A program made the position numbers and the translations under genes. Below, in pieces: positions 25,250 to 48,635 of a stretch of DNA of 64,000 nt. The notes under the pieces were generated by a model. That model ran no database searches. It saw only the letters and a program-made list of their open reading frames with translations, and had not been told where the DNA came from. The stretch comes from Pseudovibrio sp. Ad37 (GTDB lineage: Bacteria; Pseudomonadota; Alphaproteobacteria; Rhizobiales; Stappiaceae). The first letter of the stretch is position 1, and the number at the start of each line of letters is the position of its first letter. The stretch lies in contig NZ_LMCF01000012.1 in the NCBI RefSeq assembly GCF_001623075.1, forward strand, positions 124,001-188,000, read 5' to 3'.

Positions 25250-25289
25250 TATGGCCTCCTCCGGGACGCCCCGCCCGGGTTGAAGTGAA

Positions 25290-25474
25290 ACATAATGGCA
25301 GGTCTCCTGACTCGCGGGTCTGTGCTCAGCCAGCCTTCCCGGATCTCTCCAGTGGCATGCTTGGCGTCGCTCGCCGCTTACAGTTGCGGGGGCAGTCACG
25401 GAATTAGCGCCTGTTGGCTACACTTCACCGTGTTCCCTTTTAATCCCGAGGCCTTTCGCACCTCAGAAACCATA
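25290..25474 (-). ncRNA. Cobalamin riboswitch
   Basis: Minus-strand sequence contains the hallmark elements in order: AAAAGGGAACACGGTGAA, CCGTGACTGCCCCCGCAACTG, TAAGCGGCGAGCGACGCC, GCCACTGGAGAGATCCGGGAAGG and GAGTCAGGAGACCTGCC. It responds to adenosyl-/methylcobalamin. Reading leftward it leads into the 31-codon ORF and then the ABC importer operon 355 bases away. Boundaries are approximate. Confidence 0.92.
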
Positions 25475-25570
25475 GGCCCACATACTGAATTTTGCAGACC
25501 CCAATTGCAAGCGCTTTCGAGAATAGACCTGAGGTGCTGTTGATAGCAGCTATCACCACACCAAAGTCAC

Positions 25571-25613: not shown

Positions 25614-26240
25614 CTAGCTCTTTCGCAATCCGTTCTTGATAATCTCACTATGCATCCAGTGGGTGTCACTCTGTACGTGATCTGCCCGCACATACTTGGC
25701 CATATGTGTCGTCATGTCAGGCTCTTGGAATGCCTCACTGGTTCGCACGACAAAGCCCTCCTGCTTGCTCAGGTTGAGCCCGTTCAGCACTCTGTCAACG
25801 CTTGCTTGAGTGAAAACGCCCCTGTGCAACACCGGAACAGGAGCGATGCCCAGCTCTGAGAAACGGTCCAGCGTCGCATCCCAACTCTGTGTGACGCCGC
25901 CAACAATCCATGCAAAACCTAGAAAGTAAGTGGGCAACCTGTCATAAGCGACGGAATGACGGGCAAACAGATACTCACCGACGATCCGCTCATCCTCAGC
26001 AAGACACGGCGAAACACCTGCCGCAAAAGCTTTCATCCAATCACGGGATGGATGATACCCACTGTCAGGGCTACGCGCATGGCATCCACTCTGCAGGATA
26101 GTCGTGTTCTCGCCGTCCATCTTCTCGGTAAAGACGACCTCTGCCGCGCTTTCCAGAACCGCCAAATCCCGCAGGATCTTGTCATCGCTCATAACACCGG
26201 GAGAGCTGGGTAAATGATAGGTGCGGCCATACTTCTTCAT
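25614..26240 (-). CDS. RNA ligase family protein
   Basis: ATP-dependent nucleotidyltransferase, 208 residues, that would join RNA ends via a lysyl-AMP intermediate. Motif I FTEKMDGENTT has the nucleophile Lys40; motif Ia/III region IVGEYLFARHS and YFLGFAWI; motif IV EGFVVRT (161-167); motif V AKYVRADHV with Lys182. The short length matches minimal Rnl2-like ligases with no large extra domain. It lies at the left edge of the accessory island, divergent from the repeats, with AGGAG about 12 nt before the ATG. Likely RNA repair; substrate unknown. Confidence 0.85.
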   Translation of the reverse strand: MKKYGRTYHLPSSPGVMSDDKILRDLAVLESAAEVVFTEKMDGENTTILQSGCHARSPDSGYHPSRDWMKAFAAGVSPCLAEDERIVGEYLFARHSVAYDRLPTYFLGFAWIVGGVTQSWDATLDRFSELGIAPVPVLHRGVFTQASVDRVLNGLNLSKQEGFVVRTSEAFQEPDMTTHMAKYVRADHVQSDTHWMHSEIIKNGLRKS

Positions 26241-26370
26241 GGATCCCGCAGCTCCTTATCTCCAAAGCGAATAAGGGAACTCCGATTTTAATTCCTATGC
26301 TCATTGAGCCAGGACACCGCCCCTTCTTCTTATCGGGTGGTGATTACAAGCTTTAACGAGCAACCACAAC

Positions 26371-26503
26371 CACCCACCGTCTTCCCGGACAAACGCAGTG
26401 CAGATCCGGGATCCAGAGCAACACGCTCAGGCATAAGCCACGGCACAAACACCTTGCTCCCCCCCACCATCCACATCCCTGTCAAAACTACCAGTTTGAC
26501 AGG
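26371..26503. repeat. Palindromic intergenic repeat, copy A1
   Basis: First of two diverged copies (with 26653-26785) sharing most positions over ~130 bases, beginning caccNtccgtcttcccgga. Each has a cccgga...tccggg hairpin (here 26384-26389/26405-26410), the core of the common alphaproteobacterial RIME/REP-like repeat. A second hairpin, ccctgtcaaa (26477-26486) with agtttgacaggg (26493-26504), closes this copy. Sequence 26241-26370 holds no gene. Confidence 0.65.
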
Positions 26504-26554
26504 GTAATAACCTCATCCCATTCTCATGCATGAAGCGCACAAGTCCTTTGTTAT

Positions 26555-26635
26555 GGGCGGGAGGGTGGTGAATAGAATACCCTTTCGAGGGGAATAAACT
26601 CGCCTGTCTGTTTGCAGGTTTCTAGCCTCCCGCCC
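26555..26635 (+). ncRNA. C4-type antisense RNA module, copy 1
   Basis: 81-nt element with the three-helix layout of phage P1/P7-type C4 antisense RNA: outer stem gggcgggagg (26555-26564) / cctcccgccc (26626-26635), inner hairpin ccct-ttcg-aggg (26580-26591) with a UUCG loop, and cctgt/gcagg (26603-26618). Base changes against copy 2 preserve pairing in every helix. Its gggtggtgaa segment can pair with the leader of the gene at 27059. It may be a duplicate without its own target, since no gene follows directly. Confidence 0.6.
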
Positions 26636-26652
26636 GCCAAAGGGTTCTCACG

Positions 26653-26785
26653 CCACCCTCCGTCTTCCCGGACAAGCGCAGCGTAGATCCGGGATCCAGA
26701 GCGACATGCTCAGGCATAAGCCACGACACAAACGCCTCGCTAACCCCGTCATCCACATCCTTGTAAAAACTGTCAGTTTGACAAC
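26653..26785. repeat. Palindromic intergenic repeat, copy A2
   Basis: Second copy of the repeat at 26371-26503. Hairpin cccgga (26667-26672) / tccggg (26688-26693). Together with the C4 modules this makes a duplicated A-B-A-B order, about 280-350 bases per unit, which argues for one segmental duplication. Confidence 0.65.
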
Positions 26786-26845
26786 CGTCGGTTTTCATTC
26801 CACATTCATCTGTGAGGCTTCGAAACCTCCTTTAGACAGCGGTAA

Positions 26846-26876
26846 CCGCTCCCGTTAACTAGCGGATTTTTTGTGC
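26846..26876 (+). terminator. Intrinsic terminator between the two C4-like modules
   Basis: ccgct (26846-26850) / agcgg (26861-26865) followed by atttttt. It would end + strand transcripts that start at or before copy 1, isolating copy 2. Just upstream, tttagacagcgg (26831-26842) resembles the target site at 27041-27048. Confidence 0.55.
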
Positions 26877-26907
26877 CTTTTTTCTAAGGGCGCAGACCCT
26901 TTGCTAT

Positions 26908-26990
26908 GAGCGGGAGGGCGGTGAATACAATACCTCTTTCGGGAGGGAATAAACTCGCCTGTCTGTCTACAGGTTTCGAACCTCCCGCTC
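26908..26990 (+). ncRNA. C4-type antisense RNA module, copy 2
   Basis: 83-nt element. Outer stem gagcgggagg (26908-26917) / cctcccgctc (26981-26990); compared with copy 1 one G-C pair has become A-T on both sides. Inner hairpin cctct-ttcg-ggagg (26933-26946), and cctgt/acagg (26958-26973) where copy 1 has a T-G wobble. The segment tctgtctacagg (26962-26973) is complementary at 11 of 12 positions to cctatagacaga (27037-27048) before the downstream gene's start. C4 RNAs are processed from the leader of the operon they repress. Confidence 0.7.
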
Positions 26991-27028
26991 GCCAGCGGGC
27001 CGTCGAAAGCCTTGTTGTCGCGCGGTTG

Positions 27029-27052
27029 TTCAACACCCTATAGACAGAGGGA
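27029..27052 (+). promoter_or_regulatory. Predicted C4 target site in the leader of the downstream small gene
   Basis: ttcaacaccct (27029-27039) is complementary to agggYggtgaa in the 5' arm of the C4-like modules, and cctatagacaga (27037-27048) to the loop of the third hairpin. The two target segments are adjacent and run into the ribosome site agaggga (27046-27052), the arrangement called a' and b' in phage P1/P7. Pairing would hide the ribosome site of the gene at 27059. Confidence 0.6.
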
Positions 27053-27058
27053 TTGAGA

Positions 27059-27331
27059 ATGACCGACTCCGCATGTGCGTGTGGCACCACAAATACTTTC
27101 CAAAATGAAATTGACGAAGTCATCGTTGCTGTCTCGGATTTGCAGAACCTCTCGTATATTCAGCATCTCGTGCTGACAGAGAGAATGCAGCACTCCAGCG
27201 AGCACGATGCCCTGTTCACTCTGCATCACGCCTTCCGCGATCGCCTCGAAGCGCTCAAGAAAAGCTGCGGAATGTTAGAGCGAGTCGCTCATCCGCAGCC
27301 AATAAACACAAAAACTCCGCTTCCTGATTAA
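27059..27331 (+). CDS. Small protein downstream of C4-like RNA, in the position of Icd
   Basis: 90 residues starting MTDSACACGTT; AGAGGGA 6 nt before the ATG. Mostly helical (QNEIDEVIVAVSDLQNL, ALFTLHHAFRDRLEALKK) with Cys residues at both ends. No family recognised. In P1/P7 and many cryptic prophages the gene after C4 encodes an inhibitor of cell division; position, not sequence, suggests a similar toxic role here. An in-frame TTG at 27053 is unlikely. Confidence 0.6.
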   Translation: MTDSACACGTTNTFQNEIDEVIVAVSDLQNLSYIQHLVLTERMQHSSEHDALFTLHHAFRDRLEALKKSCGMLERVAHPQPINTKTPLPD

Positions 27332-27438: not shown

Positions 27439-27713
27439 CTCACAAAATGGCTTGATCGTGCAGCGCGCTCCACGTGATCGGTACCCCTGACCACGCAGAG
27501 CTCGTTCAACAGCACTGTGATGGGTAAATGGCACGAACCCGTGCCACTTGCCTCCGGTACCAATGGCGAAACGCAAATACACCCCGCATCCTCGCCAAAT
27601 GGTGCCCTGCTGGTCTGCGGCAATACCACCCCGCCGCAGGCCAGCGCCTCCTTAAAAATACCAGTGCCACCCACACAACGTCCACTCCCTGAAAAATAAG
27701 GGGTAGTATGCAT
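27423..27713 (-). CDS. Doubtful ORF upstream of the HEPN-motif gene
   Basis: 96 codons from ATG 27713 (MHTTPYFSGSGRC...) to a stop that overlaps a minus-strand terminator. No family is recognised, composition is Gly/Cys/Val-rich, and frames on the opposite strand (27517-27699) are equally open. I list it because the terminator faces the right way; the whole 27332-27817 stretch otherwise has no supported gene. Confidence 0.2.
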   Translation of the reverse strand: MHTTPYFSGSGRCVGGTGIFKEALACGGVVLPQTSRAPFGEDAGCICVSPLVPEASGTGSCHLPITVLLNELCVVRGTDHVERAARSSHFVSQSFL

Positions 27714-27817
27714 CTCATCAAATCGATTTGCCGAAACTCGGTTGAGAAAATAAAGCTGAAGGCTGATTGAATGCAATCTATTCGATTGCTTATTTTCGAG
27801 CTTGTCGTGGGGAATTA

Positions 27818-29164
27818 ATGAAAAAACAGAAAATTAGATTGAATGAGGTCATCAATAAAATTCTAAGTGAGTTTGCTCTGATCAATCAGCAGCAAACCCA
27901 ACGCATTTGGAAGCGGCAAATTATGACTGATACTGGTCATATCGTCTTCGTCTCGCAAGCCATTTTGGACTACATTTATGATCTGGCCGTTCTTGAGACA
28001 GAAAATAAGAACGAAGCGCCCCCGTTTGTTGCAAATTTCAAAGACTTACAGAAGGCATGTTCAAATGCCGTTGCAACAGCGTTGTTGCAAACACAAGATG
28101 TTCAAAATTCAACTCGCAACAAGCTGTTCAGAAGAACCTATAAGAGCTTTTTAAAAGCGCATTTTGAGGGGCAAGGGAAGCGTGTTTTTGTTTTTGGTGT
28201 ACATTTCTTCTCCACACAAAGAGATTTTACGATTGAGCTTGGTGGGGTCAAGTTACAGCATAGAGAGCAGTGGCTGTGGGAGGCCAAAGAGCAAGGATAC
28301 CTATCATCAAAGCAAACGTCAGATATTGACCAGTTTTGGAACAACAAAAGTTCTATAAGTTCACTTAGCTTGGGAAAGGAAATCGCAAATGCAACGTGCG
28401 ATGCCGAATACATACTAAGTGTACCGATAGATGGTTTTGACAAGGTTGCAGGCTATGAGCGCGCATTATTTGCTGCCCGTATTTGCATTGCTCTATGGTG
28501 TCTTCTTTTGTCGGATCGCCCTGAGAAGTTTTTATCAGTGTGTAGTCTAACTAATGATCGCCCATCTCAATTTCGAACAAGAGCATTTCTTTCTCAAGAA
28601 AGTGAGTTTGCACGCGAAAAAGATGCAGGTTCAATAGGAATCGACAGTGATAACTGGATGCTTTTTTGTCAGCACAATCCTGAACTCATAAGTTTCGCCG
28701 CTTCACTTCTTAGGTTTATTGTTTCGTCAAAGCCAACGATTGCAAGAAATCGTTTGTTTCTAGCTTTTGCTCATTCCCTGATGTGGTTCTACAAGGGATG
28801 TAATGAAGAAATTTCTCCAATAGCAGTTAGTAATCTTGGAGCCTGTTTAGATGCGATTGGGGAGCAAAATGGACGGAAAGGTATTGGGGCGAGAGCTGAA
28901 GGTGTTTTTGGTCAAAATCTTGATGCACCTTTCTTGAACTACGGGTTCTCTTTCCAAGAGTTAATTGATGCAATCTACCATTCTGGTAGAAATGCGACTT
29001 TTCATGGAAGCAATCGAATGTTGTTTAAAGATTGGTCCTTAGAAAAAAATCGAGCTATTGCATTTTGCTTTGAGCTATTGAGGAAGGCCATATCATTAGC
29101 CGCACATGATATCGAGATAGATTGCACCTCTAAGCTGATAATGAAGAAAAACAGGCTTCTGTGA
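27818..29164 (+). CDS. Large hypothetical protein with C-terminal HEPN (Apea-like) motif
   Basis: 448 residues, no signal peptide or membrane helix. The last ~75 residues read ELIDAIYHSGRNATFHGSN (R391-x4-H396) followed by a helix NRAIAFCFELLRKAISLA, which fits the Rx4-6H catalytic motif of HEPN RNases and Apea-like abortive-infection/RloC/LsoA-type domains. The N-terminal 370 residues are not recognised. Codon use is noticeably AT-richer than neighbours, a sign of transfer. The GGGGA site fixes the ATG at 27818 rather than 27767. A defence or toxin role is inferred. Confidence 0.65.
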   Translation: MKKQKIRLNEVINKILSEFALINQQQTQRIWKRQIMTDTGHIVFVSQAILDYIYDLAVLETENKNEAPPFVANFKDLQKACSNAVATALLQTQDVQNSTRNKLFRRTYKSFLKAHFEGQGKRVFVFGVHFFSTQRDFTIELGGVKLQHREQWLWEAKEQGYLSSKQTSDIDQFWNNKSSISSLSLGKEIANATCDAEYILSVPIDGFDKVAGYERALFAARICIALWCLLLSDRPEKFLSVCSLTNDRPSQFRTRAFLSQESEFAREKDAGSIGIDSDNWMLFCQHNPELISFAASLLRFIVSSKPTIARNRLFLAFAHSLMWFYKGCNEEISPIAVSNLGACLDAIGEQNGRKGIGARAEGVFGQNLDAPFLNYGFSFQELIDAIYHSGRNATFHGSNRMLFKDWSLEKNRAIAFCFELLRKAISLAAHDIEIDCTSKLIMKKNRLL

Positions 29165-29175
29165 AATGTGTATAC

Positions 29176-32976: not shown

Positions 32977-33080
32977 GGTGGGAGGCTGGCACGATGACCC
33001 GTGCCATGGACTCGTTAGGGCTGCTTCCTTCCGGATCTGACCCGGTTGGCGAGTGGCTCGTCCACCACCAACCTCCCGAT
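32977..33080 (+). ncRNA. ffs: Signal recognition particle 4.5S RNA
   Basis: The apical SRP core is unmistakable: gggctgcttccttccggatc (33018-33037) and tgacccggttggcgagtgg (33038-33056), giving the GGAx-type tetraloop and the asymmetric internal loops bound by Ffh. The ends ggtgggaggctgg (32977-32989) and ccaccaccaacctcccg (33062-33078) close the rod. Ends are approximate. Divergent from dnaX, a common pairing. Confidence 0.93.

Positions 33081-47510: not shown

Positions 47511-48635
<1,125 letters not shown>

Follow-up and report, generated by a model that had tools for sequence, protein, structure and literature searches.

The DNA analyzed here, which we call the window, is a 64,000-nucleotide (nt) stretch of the Pseudovibrio sp. 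Ad37 genome (NZ_LMCF01000012.1, positions 124,001-188,000), and all coordinates below are window positions. On its forward strand lie two related structured RNAs, the orphan element 1 (26556..26642) and the candidate antisense RNA element 2 (26909..26997), the latter followed by the gene that we predict to be regulated (27059..27331), which encodes a 90-residue protein with two predicted helices. In a covariance-model scan of the window, both elements exceed the 53-bit gathering score of Rfam family RF02221 (sRNA-Xcc1), with 59.4 bits for element 1 and 55.9 bits for element 2. A first-pass annotation of this DNA had expected them to match the Rfam C4 antisense RNA model; no match to that model (RF01695) was found at 26200-27200 even at E ≤ 10, and we reject membership of either element in the C4 family. 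The same genome carries two RF01695 matches at other places (loci L026 and L027) and a total of 17 RF02221 matches, 8 of them above cut-off; the 15 that lie elsewhere are additions to the earlier description, as are the upstream target sites discussed below. That description had also treated the two elements as equal tandem modules, and in this it has to be amended: only element 2 is accompanied by a gene and by target sites, and it is this unit that we refer to as module 2.

Each element folds into an outer stem (P1) enclosing two hairpins, a UUCG-type hairpin and a second one termed P3, as in the C4-type class. In element 1, P1 pairs 26556-26564 with 26626-26634, and P3 (26603-26618), whose loop sequence is b' (TCTGTTTG), is joined to P1 by the stretch a' (26619-26625); in element 2 the corresponding parts are 26909-26917/26981-26989 for P1, 26958-26973 for P3 with its b', and 26974-26980 for a'. 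The proposal that the two share the same three helices is confirmed by folding, with a minimum free energy of -35.0 kcal/mol for 26556-26637 (z -3.1, 0 of 200 shuffles as good) and -31.2 kcal/mol for 26909-26992 (z -2.1, 7 of 200 shuffles as good), and the compensatory change from G26556-C26634 to A26909-T26989 is indeed present. It is further confirmed by covariation in a structure alignment of 13 RF02221 elements from Pseudovibrio, Pasteurellaceae, Xanthomonas, phages, and other sources: changes on both sides are found in 16 of the 22 pairs, a number that none of 500 shuffles reaches, and 86% of the pairing cells are occupied by pairs, against 35-52% when the partners are slid, the real structure beating every slid version.

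Module 2 contains two pairs of sites that match its RNA, one on either side of it: b1 and b2 are complements of b' in the P3 loop, and a1 and a2 of a', the joint between P3 and P1. The module begins with a possible -35 box, TTGACA (26778..26783, +), of which the spacing of TTGAC is kept in relatives, followed by a hairpin, GAGG(CTTCGAAA)CCTC (26814..26829, +), presenting a1 (TTCGAAA, 26819-26825), and by b1 (TAGACAG, 26833..26839, +). A probable attenuator comes next (26838..26872, +), consisting of the antiterminator-like AGCGGTAACCGCT (26838-26850) and a terminator-like hairpin ending in AGCGG-ATTTTTT. Behind the RNA lie the a2 site (26998..27011, +), a possible small hairpin, GGCCGTCGAAAGCC, with a2 as TCGAAA at 27003-27008, and the b2 site (27036..27051, +), a possible hairpin, CCCT(ATAGACAG)AGGG, with b2 as TAGACAGA at 27041-27048; the AGGG that forms the 3' arm of the latter is likely to be the Shine-Dalgarno sequence of the 90-residue gene. 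When the 17 copies in this genome are set side by side, the usual order is the same: TTGACA, a1 in a GAGG(..)CCTC loop, b1, GCGGTnACCGC, a GCGG-ATTTTTT hairpin, the small RNA (sRNA), a2, b2, and a start codon, with b2 just 5' of, or partly over, the Shine-Dalgarno sequence. By BLAST comparison, what these copies share reaches mainly from promoter to gene (about -120 to +270 or +360 relative to the sRNA start); in a few close copies the shared stretch extends further.

The match between RNA and leader lends strong support to a C4-like mechanism. It had been noted earlier that tctgtctacagg of the second element is complementary to 27037-27048 at 11 of 12 positions; this holds, with the 8-mer at 27041-27048 exact, and over the relatives such matching is far above chance. 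A second complementarity, between agggYggtgaa of both elements and 27029-27039, had been proposed as well and is rejected, the own leader scoring 6.83 of 11, no better than swapped leaders (6.84) or shuffled ones (7.36). The relatives examined comprise 96 RF02221 matches in 16 Pseudovibrio genomes, of which 87 were parsed by a core pattern, one orphan with no exact P3 stem (G001:C31) was read by eye, and 8 others were left out; with three parsed orphans set aside, 84 modules remained, representing 22 types of b', 8 types of a', and 43 combinations. A first, crude test with the whole P3-P1 stretch gave z 22, the own leader being strictly best in 12 of 133 cases and best or tied in 35; given this weak rank result, tests anchored at the individual a and b sites were made. 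At 6 or more base pairs (bp), b2 matches the RNA of its own module in 82/84 cases, against 440/6540 (6.7%) for leaders of modules with another b', and a2 does so in 80/84, against 182/5666 (3.2%) when swapped. The upstream sites behave similarly, b1 pairing over at least 5 bp in 76/84 (swapped, 721/6540, 11.0%) and a1 over at least 6 bp in 81/84 (swapped, 429/5666, 7.6%). Both downstream sites together match in 78/84 modules and in 10 of 980 crosses within the same genome (Fisher p 3e-99), and in 71 of 82 cases no leader of the same genome has a better duplex energy than the own one. For the Ad37 genome itself this figure is 12 of 16, and of the 17 copies all but element 1 (16) have a b2 that pairs for 6 nt or more with the P3 of the same copy.

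Single matches of only 6-8 bp might arise by chance, or persist by shared ancestry with no function attached. We give this explanation practically no credence, and at the level of sequence it is refuted. Where modules in different genomes share at least 250 nt of flank, b' differs in 16 of 23 pairs (a count that replaces the 63 of 107 obtained under a looser flank rule), while the b'-b2 match is kept in 82/84 modules; the code therefore changes and the match is kept. The permutation z values, moreover, range from 10 to 22. A matching code appears to be private to most copies, so far as comparison of these sequences can tell, with some sixteen pairs in this bacterium, nearly all having their own code. 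Identical codes occur in 2 of 490 pairs within a genome and in 42 of 2889 pairs that lie in different genomes and share no flank, a depletion that is not significant (Fisher p 0.08).

The same correspondence is seen in other bacteria and phages. In a second set, parsing succeeded for 92 of 119 elements and left 72 distinct codes, nearly all from outside Pseudovibrio (the exceptions include at least L028 and L030, Pseudovibrio modules whose core differs). Own versus swapped comparison of these codes gave z 19.9 downstream and 17 upstream, with b2 matching over at least 6 bp in 47/72 (swapped 9.4%) and a2 in 49/72 (swapped 15.4%). As a check on selection we used 29 loci found by Rfam score rather than by pattern, in genomes drawn evenly from the phylum; they represent those of the 50 other matching genomes for which a locus was reported for the best match. 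They gave z 10.6 downstream and 14.3 upstream, with 0 of 10,000 permutations as high; both upstream sites match in 25/29 (swapped 5.4%) and both downstream sites in 15/29 (swapped 2.1%). The upstream a1/b1 branch is more widely kept than the downstream branch. Over the 299 genomes of the phylum survey, the window's own included, RF02221 was found in 51 (36 above cut-off) and C4 in 42 (40 above cut-off); in some of these genomes C4 reaches 14 matches.

The elements around the pairing sites are also conserved among the 84 Pseudovibrio modules. TTGAC stands 35-37 nt 5' of the a1 hairpin in 80, the a1 stem (GAGG with CCTC or CCTT) is present in 81, and an element like GCGGTnACCGC in 83. A terminator-like hairpin 5' of the RNA occurs in 78, against 5.3 expected from shuffles, and b1 lies on its 5' side in 70 of the 71 modules in which both were located; this hairpin may terminate transcription. 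Around b2, other modules replace CCCT/AGGG by AGCC/GGCT, TGCC/GGCA, or AACT/GGTT, and a stem of at least 4 pairs is found in 75/84, against 48.9 expected with shuffled flanks. That b2 sits in a hairpin loop is suggestive only.

This organization resembles that of the C4 RNA (RF01695) of the immI region of phages P1 and P7, which is about 80 nt long and likewise has an outer stem and two hairpins, with b' in the second hairpin and a' between that hairpin and the outer stem, a1 and b1 upstream, and a2 and b2 before the ribosome site. The P1 record places a1 at 48255-48261 and b1 at 48269-48276 (both putative), C4 at 48343-48419, a2 at 48423-48429, b2 at 48452-48459, and icd from 48470. Spacings in P1 and module 2 are nearly superimposable: 14 and 14 nt from the start of a1 to that of b1, 74 and 76 from the start of b1 to that of the RNA, and 11 in each between the end of b2 and the ATG. 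Between b1 and c4, P1 has GCGGACAACCGC...GCGGTATTTTTGTG (GCGG..ACCGC..GCGGTATTTTTGTG) where module 2 has GCGGTAACCGC...GCGGATTTTTTGTG, and in both a hairpin with a T-run follows b1. The two true C4 copies of the Ad37 genome show, by eye, the same succession of a1-b1, hairpin with T-run, RNA, a2-b2, and small gene. A table in PMC2864571 lists a motif c4-a1b1, so that the region upstream of C4 had already been recognized as structured. There are also differences. Apart from the missing RF01695 match, the first hairpin of the RF02221 elements has another core (AATACAATACC..GGGAATAA), a 90-residue orphan protein takes the place of icd/ant, chromosomal copies are many, and no recognized phage genes lie beside module 2. 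Of the C4-type arrangement that the first-pass annotation had claimed, the antisense pairing with the next gene's leader finds strong support in the matched-versus-swapped tests and in the P1 order of a1-b1-RNA-a2-b2-gene, and the identity with Rfam C4 finds none.

We consider it highly probable, on sequence grounds, that element 2, its leader, and the 90-residue gene form one self-regulating C4-type operon. RF02221 is best read as a family of C4-type antisense RNAs that would shut down their own operon, often that of a phage antirepressor; an RNA outside the Rfam C4 family would then exercise C4-type antisense control of an operon, and would do so in numerous copies that are nearly orthogonal to one another. 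From the parts, the pairing, and the covariation seen in these sequences we infer repression, processing, termination, and action in trans, which might proceed as follows. Transcription would start just 5' of the a1 hairpin, and read-through past the attenuator would yield a transcript carrying the sRNA and then the gene. The sRNA would be released as a separate RNA of about 80 nt, as the 88 nt of the founding member and the precedent of C4 suggest. In trans, b' and a' would pair with b2 and a2 in the gene leader, keeping ribosomes off the start site; they would also pair with b1 and a1 of new transcripts, favoring the terminator 5' of the sRNA, so that the operon would shut itself down. A copy entering a cell that lacks the matching RNA would be expressed until its own RNA accumulated.

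RNA and targets share one transcript, only 22 nt separate a' from a2 in module 2, and the leader contains an attenuator-like structure. These features would also suit a switch acting only in cis, in which a', b', and their complements form alternative structures within one long leader and no separate trans-acting RNA is made. We think such a switch unlikely. Passages of the founding report describe sRNA-Xcc1 as a discrete RNA, about 100 nt by Northern blot and 88 nt by rapid amplification of cDNA ends, with no proven target (PMC2996969); three of the four orphan RNAs considered below persist where no a1, b1, a2, or b2 was seen alongside by eye; and the C4 of P1 is annotated as an antisense RNA with these very sites.

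Several observations weigh against the proposal of a self-repressing antisense operon. A sigma-70 scan found no promoter at module 2, the fold of its whole leader is not better than shuffles (z -0.5), and the b2 hairpin in the window reaches z -1.8 with 12 of 200 shuffles as good, leader folds thus standing at most weakly above shuffles. The terminator count of a general scan is not clearly above shuffles, and that scan alone would not single out the attenuator; in the second set a terminator-like hairpin 5' of the RNA is present in only 35 of 69 cases, with 1.8 expected. A b2 stem of 3 pairs is found in 84/84 modules and in 74.7 with shuffled flanks, such hairpins being common by chance, and the presence of a b2 hairpin in every module is withdrawn as strong support, only stems of at least 4 pairs standing out. 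With respect to pairing, one of the two downstream sites is not matched at 6 bp in 6 of the 84 modules, and another copy's leader from the same genome gives a better duplex energy in 11 of 82 cases (4 of 16 in the window genome). Outside Pseudovibrio the downstream match is often missing, as the 47 and 49 of 72 given above for b2 and a2 indicate, and of the 29 loci, 4 lack both pairs and 10 retain just the upstream one; no locus has just the downstream one.

The Xanthomonas-type elements are a case in point. In X. melonis (L079) and in a very similar locus, L353, a1 and b1 match a' and b' exactly over 7 and 8 nt, and a hairpin with a T-run lies 3' of them, strong in L079; no a2 or b2 was seen downstream of either of these two elements, and in the Xanthomonas lineage it is therefore the upstream branch alone that is supported. 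The absence of a downstream target there would suit the assumption of the sRNA-Xcc1 literature that the RNA acts in trans on many chromosomal targets and is linked to virulence. Portions of that literature report control by HrpG/HrpX and predictions listing many target genes (PMC2996969, PMC12189769, PMC12444791), among them 212 predicted targets for Xylella homologues of the virulence-linked RNA (PMC12189769). We judge this to be a very improbable account of the family, since in every set tested the two variable stretches follow sites of the operon to which they belong, and since L079 and L353 show them in exact match with the upstream sites. Both elements of the window score above the cut-off of the family named for sRNA-Xcc1, and L079 shares with module 2 the upstream a1/b1 with hairpin and T-run; sRNA-Xcc1 differs from module 2 in having been presented, in the published passages, as an integron-encoded trans-acting sRNA with no proven target, and in the lack of a2/b2 at L079. 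In a Xanthomonas plasmid (L388, NZ_CP021010.1), two IS5-like transposase genes enclose a sequence like the X. melonis sRNA-Xcc1 region, and annotated SymE genes lie farther out.

The sign of the regulation deserves separate consideration. The possible b2 hairpin would have the AGGG that we take to be the Shine-Dalgarno sequence as its 3' arm, and its 5' arm could be bound by the P3 arm CAGG; pairing with the b2 loop and the 5' arm might then free the Shine-Dalgarno arm and activate the gene. A precedent is the IsrK-orf45-anrP operon of Gifsy-1, in which, according to passages of PMC4825925, a small RNA heads an antirepressor operon, pairs with that operon, and in trans raised anrP translation about 140-fold. 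The same passages liken IsrK to SeqA of P4-like phages, that is, to an upstream target and not to the antisense RNA. That a related arrangement activates an antirepressor in trans leaves the sign of regulation less than certain and is to be counted with the points above (PMC4825925). We nonetheless regard activation as distinctly unlikely here: in P1, b2 (GTTAGTGA) runs straight into GGCC 5' of icd and the record notes repression, and in several other leaders, those of L191, L074, and L089 among them, b2 either covers the start codon or occupies the interval separating it from the Shine-Dalgarno sequence, positions at which a duplex should obstruct ribosomes. The CI RNA of satellite phage P4 has one pairing stretch, whereas two separate stretches pair in module 2, and the likeness between them is one of description. 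It consists in an RNA that pairs up- and downstream of itself (seqA and seqC) in its own operon, leading to early termination, as passages of PMC4825925 relate.

The product of the regulated gene has Pfam matches only below cut-off, no PHROGs match at E ≤ 1, and no PADLOC match at E ≤ 0.001; the identity as icd or antirepressor that characterizes the C4 class was not found for this protein, which matches no recognized family. Its AlphaFold model (mean predicted local distance difference test score 83) has helices at residues 4-41 and 49-77 and gave no viral structure match at E ≤ 0.001, PDB and NCBIfam not having been searched. Over 39 sampled pairs of modules with shared flank, the median ratio of nonsynonymous to synonymous substitution rates is 0.22. 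The Pseudovibrio partner proteins are mostly about 87-112 residues long; a search of the genome with the 90-residue protein gave 20 matches, several of them fragments, and a distant homologue (C32:74669) has no RF02221 match within the 1.6 kb examined. An antirepressor-like, Icd-like, or toxic role would each fit the pattern of regulation.

More can be said of the partner genes elsewhere. Among 89 downstream proteins, Pfam matches were found to Bro-N in 23, P22_AR_N in 15, KilA-N in 11, AntA in 7, and Rha in 6 (one protein may match several), the commonest being domains of phage antirepressors; these proteins come mostly from pattern-selected contigs, many of them viral, and phage partners are over-represented accordingly. 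RF02221 elements lie directly 5' of annotated antirepressor genes in Escherichia phage Rac-SA53 and Aggregatibacter phage S1249, and of a KilA-N gene in Acinetobacter phage 4316. Ten chosen partner proteins of the 29-locus set gave, by Pfam, two Bro-N, one P22_AR_N, one SymE, and six with no family. At L354, L356, L362, and L363 a reading frame of about 28-63 residues stands between RF02221 and an antirepressor-like gene (Bro-N or P22_AR_N by Pfam at the first three, by eye at L363), much as icd stands before ant in P1. The SymE partner (L368; PF08845, 2.4e-13) is preceded by its RF02221 relative with matching a2/b2, which invites comparison with the type I toxin-antitoxin system SymE-SymR; SymR, however, is cis-encoded with symE, and sRNA-Xcc1 lies upstream of symE in Xanthomonas cassettes, according to passages of PMC12444791. 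The 90-residue protein shows no sign of SymE identity.

Within the literature searched, in which no paper names both sRNA-Xcc1 and an antirepressor, and in passages of PMC2996969, PMC12189769, PMC12444791, and PMC11701678, we know of no statement that RF02221 works like C4. A family reported in 2010 would gain a concrete predicted target and mechanism, namely its own operon, often a phage antirepressor's. Earlier efforts to find virulence targets of sRNA-Xcc1 at distant loci may have been misdirected, the upstream sites of the X. melonis element matching even though no downstream site was found. Since sequence alone reveals the variable stretches, a testable prediction accompanies most RF02221 copies, and genomes with 10-20 copies would offer a natural set of nearly orthogonal RNA pairs.

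Element 1 presents a different problem. A possible -35 box, TTGACA (26496..26501, +), lies 60 nt 5' of the RNA, against 131 nt in module 2, as if the a1-b1-terminator stretch had been lost. Element 1 was found to have neither a gene behind it nor any of the four sites, a1 and b1 being absent from the interval separating TTGACA from the RNA; the longest match to a2/b2-type sites in the 120 nt downstream is 4-5 nt. The element is flanked by a 95-nt repeat (26370-26464 and 26653-26747, 88% identical), part of a partial tandem duplication that includes TTTGACA. It is one of four orphans among the elements examined, each about 350-400 nt 5' of an intact module; the orphan of G001:C19 keeps a1/b1-like sequence upstream, and the other three are those noted above as bare of sites. 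Two of the four, element 1 and the G001:C31 orphan, have lost the nearly invariant C of the core AATACAATACC.

None of the four orphans carries the code of its own neighbor; what they carry are codes found, exactly in two cases and nearly in two, at the same place in other Pseudovibrio genomes. By synteny, the place in the window corresponds to G001:C31:583k, G005:C3:96k, and G003:C1:196k. The code of element 1 (TCTGTTTG, TTTCTAG) is exactly that of the G001 module there, and the code of the G005 orphan is identical to that of the G003 module; the G001:C31 orphan (ACTGTCTG, TTTCGAA) resembles module 2 (TCTGTCTA, TTTCGAA), two loop bases differing. At a second place, the code shared by the G011 and G003 modules recurs in the G001:C19 orphan with a single loop base changed. 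Ranked by duplex energy, the same-place module of another species comes third for the G005 orphan (L288) and first for the G001:C19 orphan (L323). The best duplexes of element 1 are with G011 leaders, L042 (-18.9) and L319 (-18.1), then with L025 of its own genome (-14.7), the same-place module of G001 giving -13.8. For the G001:C31 orphan too there is a good partner in its own genome, L283 (-15.3).

Two readings fit the orphans: they may be remnants left by displaced modules, or solo RNAs retained for the protection they give. On the second of these one could speculate that RF02221 serves as a chromosomal self/non-self code, in which every copy bears its own two-part key, copies replace one another at a given place, and the key of a displaced copy is retained as a promoter-driven solo RNA, such as element 1, protecting against the displaced allele that persists in other species in the manner of an anti-addiction or immunity RNA. 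With four cases from one genus, we offer this as a tentative idea that is rather less likely to be right than wrong. A simple form of protection is weakened by the finding that the same-place G001 module has a b2 of only 5 bp and that the best duplexes of element 1 lie elsewhere, as well as by the good pairing of the G001:C31 orphan within its own genome. Even so, the orphan copies make the retention of solo antisense RNAs as immunity testable.

Eight other Pseudovibrio genomes were compared for an empty site at this place, and both flanks are kept only in G011 and G013. Beyond the 90-residue gene, 27706-29173, with a 465-residue reading frame, has no alignment to the same place in G001, G003, and G005, and is perhaps an insertion-prone spot. 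On the other side of the locus, a 208-residue reading frame (25614-26240, - strand) has a KMDGEN motif, which we take to resemble that of nucleotidyltransferases or RNA ligases. A cobalamin riboswitch (25280-25489, - strand, 125.7 bits) stands beside apparent binding-protein, permease, and ATPase genes of a transporter, recognized by eye from their reading frames on the same strand, and a bacterial small SRP RNA lies at 32978-33076 (- strand, 55.3 bits).

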